A DNA stretch of 64,000 bases from Candidatus Neomarinimicrobiota bacterium (lineage in GTDB: Bacteria; Fidelibacterota; UBA2242; B5-G15), in contig JACDNV010000007.1 in NCBI GenBank assembly GCA_017656425.1, forward strand, positions 62,001-126,000. The letters run 5' to 3'. The stretch's first letter is position 1. Every line of letters begins with the position of its first letter. A model generated the notes under the pieces. The model had not been told where the DNA came from, ran no database searches, and saw only the letters and a list, made by a program, of their open reading frames with translations. The translations under genes and the position numbers were made by a program. Positions 23,973-25,503 of the stretch are shown one piece after another.

Positions 23973-24353
23973 TTGAATTTGGATCAAAATCTTAAAAGAA
24001 AGAGAGAAAAAGCCATTGATCAAAATTTAAAGAAAGTATTTAATGAGCAGATAAAGCTTGAATTTGAATCTGCGTATATTTATTTGTCGATGGCGACATA
24101 TTTCCATAATGTTGGATTGGATGGTATGGCAAAATGGCTGCGTATGCAGGCTAAGGAAGAAGTAGAGCATGCCATGAAATTTTTTGATCATTTAATTGAT
24201 AGGGATGAAAAAGTAGATTTAATGCGGGTAAATATCGAAAAAGTAAACTGGGCAAGCCCTCTTGAAGCATTTAAGGATGCCTATGAACATGAGAGGTTTG
24301 TTACAGGGAAGTTAATCGCAATGTCCAAATGCAGAATGCAGAATGCAAATTGA
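23973..24353 (+). CDS. Ferritin, N-terminal half (gene interrupted by S23 element)
   Basis: Encodes ferritin helices A, B and the start of C, then runs into the inserted element. Native sequence continues through VTGK (to base 24311); the last 13 residues (LIAMSKCRMQNAN) come from the element, which also supplies the TGA. Iron ligands are visible: Glu in LEFESAYIYLSMATYF, E-x-x-H in EEVEHAMKFF, and the Glu of YEHERFVT. No ATG precedes the conserved part; TTG at 23973 or 23979 or a non-standard codon must be used, with no clear ribosome site. Ferritins oxidise and store iron. Whether this half is functional alone is unknown. Confidence 0.85.
   Translation: MNLDQNLKRKREKAIDQNLKKVFNEQIKLEFESAYIYLSMATYFHNVGLDGMAKWLRMQAKEEVEHAMKFFDHLIDRDEKVDLMRVNIEKVNWASPLEAFKDAYEHERFVTGKLIAMSKCRMQNAN
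24319..24352 (+). repeat. Left inverted repeat of the S23 element
   Basis: Begins CAATGTCCAAATGCAG and contains the tandem ATGCAGA/ATGCAGA unit. Its reverse complement matches 24723-24756 at 27 of 34 positions without gaps. Confidence 0.8.
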
Positions 24354-24717
24354 AAAATGTCAAAATAGAAGCGATTTATCAGAAAGGCTATTAGAGTTCG
24401 CAGCAAGTAGCACTAAATTGACAGTTAGACTTAAAAGAACTGCTGTAGTACAGTACATAGCAAATCAGCTAATGCGAGCTGCTTCGTCTTCTGGGGCAAA
24501 TTATGAAGAGGCATGTGGAGCAGAAAGTAGAGCCGATTTTATAGATAAGATGCAACTCGTCTTGAAGGAATTACGAGAGTCTTTATATTGGCTGAAACTG
24601 GTGGAGAGAAGCGACTTAATTTCTGGCAATGAGCTACAACCATTATTGGCTGAATCAAACGAATTGATCAAAATTGTTGCAAAATCGGTAATCACTGCGA
24701 AAGGAAGGGGAGAATGA
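24343..24717 (+). CDS. Four-helix-bundle protein, 23S rRNA intervening-sequence (S23/IVP) family
   Basis: 124 residues. Family features are DLSERLLEFA at the N-terminus, then ANQLMRAASSSGANYEEACGAES, RADFIDKMQLVLKELRESLYWLKL and a C-terminal helix ending SNELIKIVAKSVI. Family members are small basic-surfaced helical bundles found inside 23S rRNA insertions and as free genes, and they are related to the Avd accessory protein of diversity-generating retroelements. Their activity is unknown. The start has no Shine-Dalgarno and overlaps the ferritin N-half by 11 bp, so translation probably depends on re-initiation. The stop overlaps the next start as ATGA. Confidence 0.88.
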   Translation: MQIEKCQNRSDLSERLLEFAASSTKLTVRLKRTAVVQYIANQLMRAASSSGANYEEACGAESRADFIDKMQLVLKELRESLYWLKLVERSDLISGNELQPLLAESNELIKIVAKSVITAKGRGE

Positions 24718-25007
24718 CTTTGCAATTTGCATATTGCAATCTTCATTTTGCAATTGCCGTAAGGCTATCTTGCCCTTCGGGAAATCGCCTTCGGCGACTT
24801 CGTGAATACAAGACGATAAATGACCTGATGAAGCTTGCAATACAAGTTGAGGATTATCCTGCCAGGGTATTACTATACTGGTTTGTAACTGAGCAAGTTG
24901 AAGAAGAAGATCAGACTTCAAAGATTGTTGGGTTATTAGGAAGAATAGGGGGTTCACAGCAAATATCGATTATGCTGGATACTCAACTTGTAAAAAGAGA
25001 AGATTGA
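24714..25007 (+). CDS. Ferritin, C-terminal half with element-derived leader
   Basis: 97 residues. The first 34 (to about base 24815) are translated from the element's right inverted repeat and hairpins without a stop. The rest is ferritin helices C and D: INDLMKLAIQVEDYPARVLL, YWFVTEQVEEED (with the conserved Glu-Gln and Glu ligands) and the C-terminal LDTQLVKRED. The ATG overlaps the S23 stop and has AAGGAAGGGGAG just upstream, a better ribosome site than either preceding ORF. It could be made as a separate chain that pairs with the N-half, or be a relic. Confidence 0.8.
   Translation: MTLQFAYCNLHFAIAVRLSCPSGNRLRRLREYKTINDLMKLAIQVEDYPARVLLYWFVTEQVEEEDQTSKIVGLLGRIGGSQQISIMLDTQLVKRED
24723..24756 (+). 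repeat. Right inverted repeat of the S23 element
   Basis: Starts CAATTTGCATATTGCA and is rich in TTGCAAT-like units. It pairs with 24319-24352 and would close a long stem around the S23 ORF in RNA. Confidence 0.8.
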
Positions 25008-25032: not shown

Positions 25033-25503
25033 ATGGAAAGAATAAGTCTTGAAGAGGTATTTAAAATTGCGATTGAAATAGAAAGAAATGGTCAGAGATT
25101 TTATCGTAATTATGCGGAAAAAAATGATGATGAAAAAATAAAAGAAGTTTTTAATAATCTTGCTGATATGGAAAGTGATCATGAAAGAGCTTTTATTGAG
25201 ATGAAAAATAGACTTGTTACAGATTATGATAGAATTGAAGCAGATACAGAGGGATTATTGAATGCCTATATAAAAGCCTTTGCCGGTGGTTATATTTTCA
25301 CTTCAGATGATAAAATAGTTGAGGCTGGAAGCCCTGATGATATTCTAAAATATGCAATAGGTAAGGAGAAAGATTCCATATCATATTATCTTGCTGTAAA
25401 GGAGTTTGTTGTTGGGGAAGATAATAAAGATAAGGTTGATAGAATTATAAAAGAGGAAATGAAACATATCATAATTTTATCTGACCTGATCGCTTCATAT
25501 TAG
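25033..25503 (+). CDS. Rubrerythrin-type ferritin-like di-iron protein
   Basis: 156 residues without a rubredoxin domain. The two helical hairpins carry the di-iron ligands: EIERNGQRFY and MESDHERAF (E-x-x-H) in the first, GKEKDSISYY and EEMKHI (E-x-x-H) in the second. Such proteins reduce peroxide in anaerobes using rubredoxin as electron donor. The adjacent rubredoxin-containing flavoprotein is a natural partner. It lies 25 bp after the ferritin C-half. Confidence 0.88.
   Translation: MERISLEEVFKIAIEIERNGQRFYRNYAEKNDDEKIKEVFNNLADMESDHERAFIEMKNRLVTDYDRIEADTEGLLNAYIKAFAGGYIFTSDDKIVEAGSPDDILKYAIGKEKDSISYYLAVKEFVVGEDNKDKVDRIIKEEMKHIIILSDLIASY

Follow-up and report, generated by a model that had tools for sequence, protein, structure and literature searches.

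The locus studied here raises a simple question: what is an open reading frame (ORF) of the S23/IVP family doing in the middle of a ferritin gene? Proteins of this family have been known for some 30 years from insertions in 23S rRNA, and we know of no established function for them, nor of any established means by which they move. The gene lies in a window of 64,000 nucleotides (bases 62001-126000 of contig C7), the whole stretch of DNA that was analyzed, from a draft genome of 2.8 Mb in 50 contigs that is 99.66% complete. Our analysis indicates that a cassette-like mobile element bearing S23 did insert here, and cleanly; it is neither an intron nor an rRNA element.

A clean insertion in the ferritin gene

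A profile search of the 2.8-Mb genome with PF00210 matched the N half and the C half of this ferritin only. It found no second intact ferritin, which an earlier note on this DNA had named as part of what would refute its reading. The N half has 113 codons up to the residues VTGK (23973..24311, plus strand), and the ORF that contains it (23973-24353), which continues into the insert up to a stop at 24351-24353, covers positions 4-99 of the profile. The C half, from INDLMKLA to the stop codon (24816..25007, plus strand), covers positions 97-141. The insert between them is exactly 24312-24815, i.e., 504 bp, and the bounds given in the earlier note were correct to the base. We joined the flanks by script (...EHERFVTGK/INDLMKLAIQ..., where a slash marks the joint, here and below in our own sites; in DNA, ...ACAGGGAAG/ATAAATGAC...). 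The resulting protein aligned without gaps to the intact ferritins of 24 related genomes, with 55-59% identity to the nearest ones (e.g., HEEFITGKINDLMKLA in locus L135), and was also ungapped at the junction when compared with solved ferritins. Hence, no bases were lost or duplicated at the insertion, and removal of the insert does restore a ferritin, as had been proposed.

The insertion point follows codon 113, and the break falls within helix C of the fold. Both halves are otherwise open and lie in the same frame, which is literally true (504 = 3x168) but uninformative, because a length that is a multiple of three is expected by chance one time in three. The frame meets the stop at 24351-24353 inside the insert, and other insertions of the family measure 683 and 1250 bp. 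We rejected translation straight through the insert on these grounds, i.e., in-frame stops and insertion lengths that are not divisible by three. The N half lacks an in-frame ATG at the position used by its relatives, and its listed, putative start is a TTG at 23973. No ATG occurs in the start region (23973-24040), which carries a near repeat (GATCAAAATCTTAAAAGAAAG / GATCAAAATTTAAAGAAAG). Directly downstream of the broken gene, at 25033-25503, the window encodes a rubrerythrin-like protein (PF02915). Most likely, the gene is disrupted and intact ferritin is no longer made; at most, the locus would yield a truncated N piece, the S23 protein, and a C piece initiated at an ATG of the element itself.

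Structure and coding content of the insert

The inserted cassette (24312..24815, plus strand) starts with TTAATCGC, where the consensus of the family is TTAAGCGC, and ends with GTGAATACAAGACG. Its left end and left arm (TTAATCGCAATGTCCAAATGCAGAATGC..., 24312..24365, plus strand) are around 83-94% identical to the leftmost 54 bp of the units of 201 bp described below. An ORF of 124 amino acids (24343..24717, plus strand) encodes the four-helix-bundle protein, whose assignment to the S23/IVP family in the earlier note holds well above the cut-offs of both TIGR02436 (77.1 bits, cut-off 24, E=1.1e-21) and PF05635 (55.1 bits, cut-off 33.8, E=9.9e-15). Its nearest solved structure chain is 2rld. The right arm of a long imperfect inverted repeat (TTTGCAATTTGCATATTGCAATCTTCATTTTGCAATT, 24719..24757, plus strand) leads into the right end (24756..24815, plus strand), made of the hairpins GCCGTAAGGC, CCCTTCGGG, and TCGCCTTCGGCGA, then GTGAATAC (24802-24809), a spacer, and a terminal G. 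In homologous elements, the counterpart of this right end is the L'/R' half of their attC-like site (see below). We found no transposase or intron core within the insert, in agreement with the earlier note, and none of the copies of the element carries a transposase.

The reading frames overlap at both ends of the S23 gene. S23 starts (24343) before the ferritin N ORF has reached its stop, and its own stop codon overlaps, as ATGA, the ATG of a 97-aa ORF (24714..25007, plus strand) that lies behind a strong Shine-Dalgarno-like stretch (AAAGGAAGGGGAGA). The frame from this ATG is open through the right end and exits into the ferritin C half (...LREYKT/INDL). These overlaps are common to all copies of the element and are not an adaptation to ferritin. 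With its own ATG and an open exit frame, the element can therefore provide the start codon when it enters a gene near the 5' end; in ferritin, this start would yield the C fragment only. Judging from the sequence, the ferritin copy looks like a 683-bp element of the L007 type that would have lost the 179 bp between two ATTGCAATCTTCATTTTGCAAT repeats.

A dispersed family of repeats

The insert is no lone intron-like element; it is one of dozens of copies dispersed in the genome. Matches to PF05635 occur at nine places in the genome. Four S23 copies align with 427-444 bp of the ferritin insert at 97-99% identity and have exact left ends (G/TTAAGCGCAATG). The ferritin copy has base changes of its own. 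The right end of the element occurs about 36 times, mostly in units of 201 bp without an ORF. These units join head to tail exactly at ...AAGACG/TTAAGC..., in tandem arrays that reach about six units. Each retains ~54 bp from the left and ~105 bp from the right of the S23 element, has ~50 bp in place of the ORF, and therefore looks like a deletion derivative of this element; the units would thus be ORF-less derivatives that were amplified in tandem. Folded as RNA, a single 201-nt unit has a minimum free energy (MFE) of -54.0 kcal/mol.

Several contigs of the assembly terminate inside such arrays. Two of these array ends, at the end of contig C7 (L013, ...NEHLRKEGYNID/) and the start of contig C25 (L012, /LFSPERAGEILL), may represent opposite sides of another interrupted gene; the left piece (L013) has no Pfam match.

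The same ends, which the earlier note proposed to look for in other genes of related genomes, occur in further protein genes of this genome. In pepF (L022/L160), three sense 201-bp units form a clean insertion (...NYTGQYND/VSTLAHEPSH...), with Peptidase_M3 matches on both sides, both halves open around the units, and a junction that is ungapped relative to 2qr4; a second M3 gene is present elsewhere in the genome. Together with ferritin, this case bears out the proposal that a DNA-level insertion can enter conserved protein genes without target duplication. Another clean sense insertion follows codon 2 of the ATP sulfurylase gene (MS/IPKPHGG). The ATP sulfurylase/APS kinase encoded there (L161:192-2198, on contig C11 of this genome, G000) has a new N terminus, its 668-aa ORF running from the ATG that overlaps the S23 stop (MTLQFAHCNLHFAM...REYKT-IPKPHGG). 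An N-acetyltransferase gene is likewise interrupted cleanly, by a sense copy that follows its codon 3 and whose exit frame leads into a fusion, and a further sense copy is found upstream of murQ (named from its sequence). The copy in the gene of tRNA-dihydrouridine synthase (Dus) is antisense (AEEFIKAI/TIHGRTAKDP), and this gene has a frameshift and stops apart from the insertion. The remaining copies are intergenic or at contig ends. Copies are scattered through the genome and not gathered in one integrase-linked array.

No Rfam rRNA match was found within 1.5 kb of the scanned S23 loci (nine in the genome) or in the window. The proposed link to 23S rRNA insertions thus holds for the protein family and fails for the location, and we rejected an insertion in 23S rRNA as an explanation. 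The ends of the element were also sought in 60 related genomes and were absent from all of them, while several of these genomes have S23-like DNA at 71-77%. As far as sequence comparison goes, the missing ends would fit a lateral gain.

Ends, target sites, and attC-like structure

Copies of the element start with TTAAGC, rarely TTAGGC, and end in G, without target duplication; the ferritin copy starts with TTAATC, one base off TTRRRY. The element therefore has the boundaries of an integron cassette (G/TTRRRY on the left, ...G/ on the right) and inserts cleanly like one. The integron core site has the consensus 5'-RYYYAAC/GTTRRRY (PMC12901181), and relaxed integrase sites are of the type 5'-GNT, with the motif GNT/GTTRRRY (PMC10127599). 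In our genome, a G precedes the element at 10 of 13 sites (p about 3e-6), and WT follows it at 10 of 14 (p about 2e-4). The resulting target consensus, G/WT, fits insertion at secondary GNT or GWT sites. Secondary sites of integrons, termed attG, were reportedly described by Loot et al. in 2024 (cited in PMC12901181). The pattern is stricter in a Bacteroidales genome, where nine elements have both flanks (left G in 9/9, right WT in 9/9).

The homologous S23 element L098, from Bacteroidales, reads ...GCCTAAC-AAA-GTATTCAC...GTGAATAC-AAGTT-G/ at its right end and /TTAGGC at its left end, and its genome has 20 matches to the right end of our element. Four Bacteroidales elements have full R''/L'' boxes, in which R'' (GCCTAAC) pairs with R' (GTTAGGC or GTTAAGC) and the L boxes pair with each other. 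Their MFE folds are attC-like and share one two-box layout: R''/R' of 8-10 bp, an uneven internal loop, and L''/L' of 8-9 bp or more. The copies of our genome keep L'/R', and their R''/L'' half is missing or degenerate. L008 is the only one with a remnant of R''/L'' (CTCCTAAC-AAA-GTATTCAC), and it has no canonical fold. The right-end hairpins of our copies fold slightly below shuffled sequences (z-scores of -1.1 to -2.1). We tried and rejected two other candidate structures. A long attC over most of the 201-bp unit, with R'' at CAGATTTGGC, received no support from folding. A compact attC-like hairpin (TCTTG...CAAGA) in the units lacking R'' folds in most units of our genome with weak z-scores and fails in several Bacteroidales copies.

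Origin of the insertion

We give a probability of roughly 0.6 to the reading that the insert is an S23-bearing, attC-type cassette, one of a dispersed mobile family, which site-specific recombination placed in the ferritin gene, disrupting it. The attC-like site would be carried by a form that is circular or folded and single-stranded, and a reaction of the tyrosine-recombinase type would join this site to a short, attG-like secondary site (G/WT), such that the element enters cleanly after codon 113 and splits the gene. Its exact ends, its multi-copy family, the clean insertion, the target consensus, and the attC-like fold of the homologues are direct observations.

Several results count against this reading. 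No integron integrase scores over the cut-off in any of three genomes, ours included; in ours, the best match to TIGR02249 is split and reaches 85.7 bits, for a cut-off of 265, and the only complete recombinases are two that resemble XerC and XerD. The copies are scattered, the right-end hairpins of our copies stand out modestly from shuffled sequences, and the strongest evidence for an attC comes from another lineage (Bacteroidales). Since the R''/L'' half is missing or degenerate in our copies, this reading does not account for the spread of the 201-bp units. The halves of ferritin and pepF, which are otherwise open and give no evidence of decay, count against disruption.

The same dispersed copies, ORF-less derivatives, right-end hairpins, and tandem arrays, all without target duplication, would also fit a MITE-like transposon repeat whose own gene is S23 and which an unrelated enzyme would move in trans (e.g., an HUH/rolling-circle or an IS200/IS605-type transposase), its likeness to attC being convergent or borrowed. 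S23 loci in many phyla have a long inverted repeat around the ORF without an attC-like right end, in line with a transposon, and the genome has one Y1_Tnp (RAYT-like) domain. HUH elements depend on a fixed sequence of four or five nucleotides at one flank, whereas the target of our element is integrase-like, with G to its left and WT to its right, only the -1 G being conserved on the left. Moreover, the sole Y1_Tnp domain is an in-frame read-through in an ORF resembling a DNA methylase, and this explanation does not predict the R''/R' and L''/L' pairing of the four homologues. We therefore regard a transposon of this kind as rather unlikely, although a serious candidate. The ORF with the Y1_Tnp domain (L125, G000:C5:24938-28171, minus strand; 709-817 aa, restriction/DNA-methylase-like) has flanks of the domain (TGIPAC.../TGISAC...TQTRMSVLR) that look like translated REP-type repeats.

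Could the gene instead remain usable, as the earlier note suggested? Removal of the element from the mRNA and joining of the halves would agree with the clean insertion, the open ferritin halves in one frame, the open pepF halves around three sense units, and the strong fold of the unit. The main argument against splicing is the antisense copy in Dus, which is strong but not absolute, because this gene may already have been dead when the element entered it. In addition, Rfam intron families have no match, whether at the gathering score or with E values allowed up to 10, no ribozyme family matches either, no reverse transcriptase was found, and the arrays, with as many as about six units, also speak against an intron. 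The S23 intervening sequence (IVS) in the 23S rRNA of Coxiella is excised by RNase III and leaves fragments (PMC4990558), a process that would therefore not mend an mRNA. We rejected the RNA intron, mainly for the Dus copy and the lack of intron core and reverse transcriptase, and consider it highly improbable. The N half of ferritin, lacking its ATG, also argues against a usable gene. Coupled translation of the three overlapping ORFs, with reassembly of the ferritin pieces, would make use of the Shine-Dalgarno-like stretch and of the exit frame that feeds the ATP sulfurylase ORF and the N-acetyltransferase fusion. It is improbable too, given a break inside helix C, overlaps that belong to the element in all its copies, and an N half without a normal start codon. 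An assembly artefact that joined ferritin halves to a repeat is suggested by the contigs ending in the same arrays. We find it extremely improbable, as the two unique halves of a single-copy gene flank the insert exactly, on one 165-kb contig, and the copy has bases of its own.

Relation to known systems

Integron cassettes inserted at secondary sites (attG, GNT or GWT) resemble the element in their TTRRRY start, terminal G, head-to-tail G/TTRRRY joints, G/WT target, and lack of target duplication, as well as in the two-box attC-like hairpin of its homologues. They differ in that here no integrase was found, the copies are scattered and lack a full R''/L'' in our genome, and the cargo is S23 or nothing. 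The S23 insertions in the 23S rRNA of Leptospira and Coxiella (PF05635, TIGR02436) share the ORF within a long imperfect inverted repeat and the clean insertion in a host gene, whereas our element occupies protein genes and intergenic DNA, has an added hairpin or attC-like right end, is multi-copy, and has ORF-less derivatives. MITEs and other non-autonomous repeats also form many short ORF-less units by internal deletion of a longer coding element; unlike them, the element has asymmetric ends, head-to-tail arrays, and no target duplication. Group I and group II introns insert cleanly in coding genes as well, but the element has no intron core, has the wrong end nucleotides, and occurs antisense in a gene.

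Literature searches for a connection of S23 or "four helix bundle protein" with integrons or with mobile elements yielded nothing usable. An S23 ORF within a multi-copy element with exact ends offers a concrete and testable route by which S23 elements spread. It also suggests that selfish DNA can become scattered through a genome lacking a recognisable integron when it inserts at secondary sites in the manner of a cassette.

Since the inverted repeat occurs in other phyla without an attC-like right end, the attC-like branch is a subset of S23 elements. One might tentatively speculate that S23 is the resident gene of widespread selfish elements, of which one branch, in our bacterium and in a Bacteroidales lineage, would be an attC-type cassette that scatters at G/WT without an integron integrase, perhaps with XerC/XerD or S23 itself as a helper, breaking and re-starting host genes. 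In a Chloroflexi element (L043), we saw by eye G/TT at both joints. In the Bacteroidales genome G061, loci L181-L194 have the same right end, with other inner repeats (of the TTCTAACTTCTAACTTC type) in place of S23.
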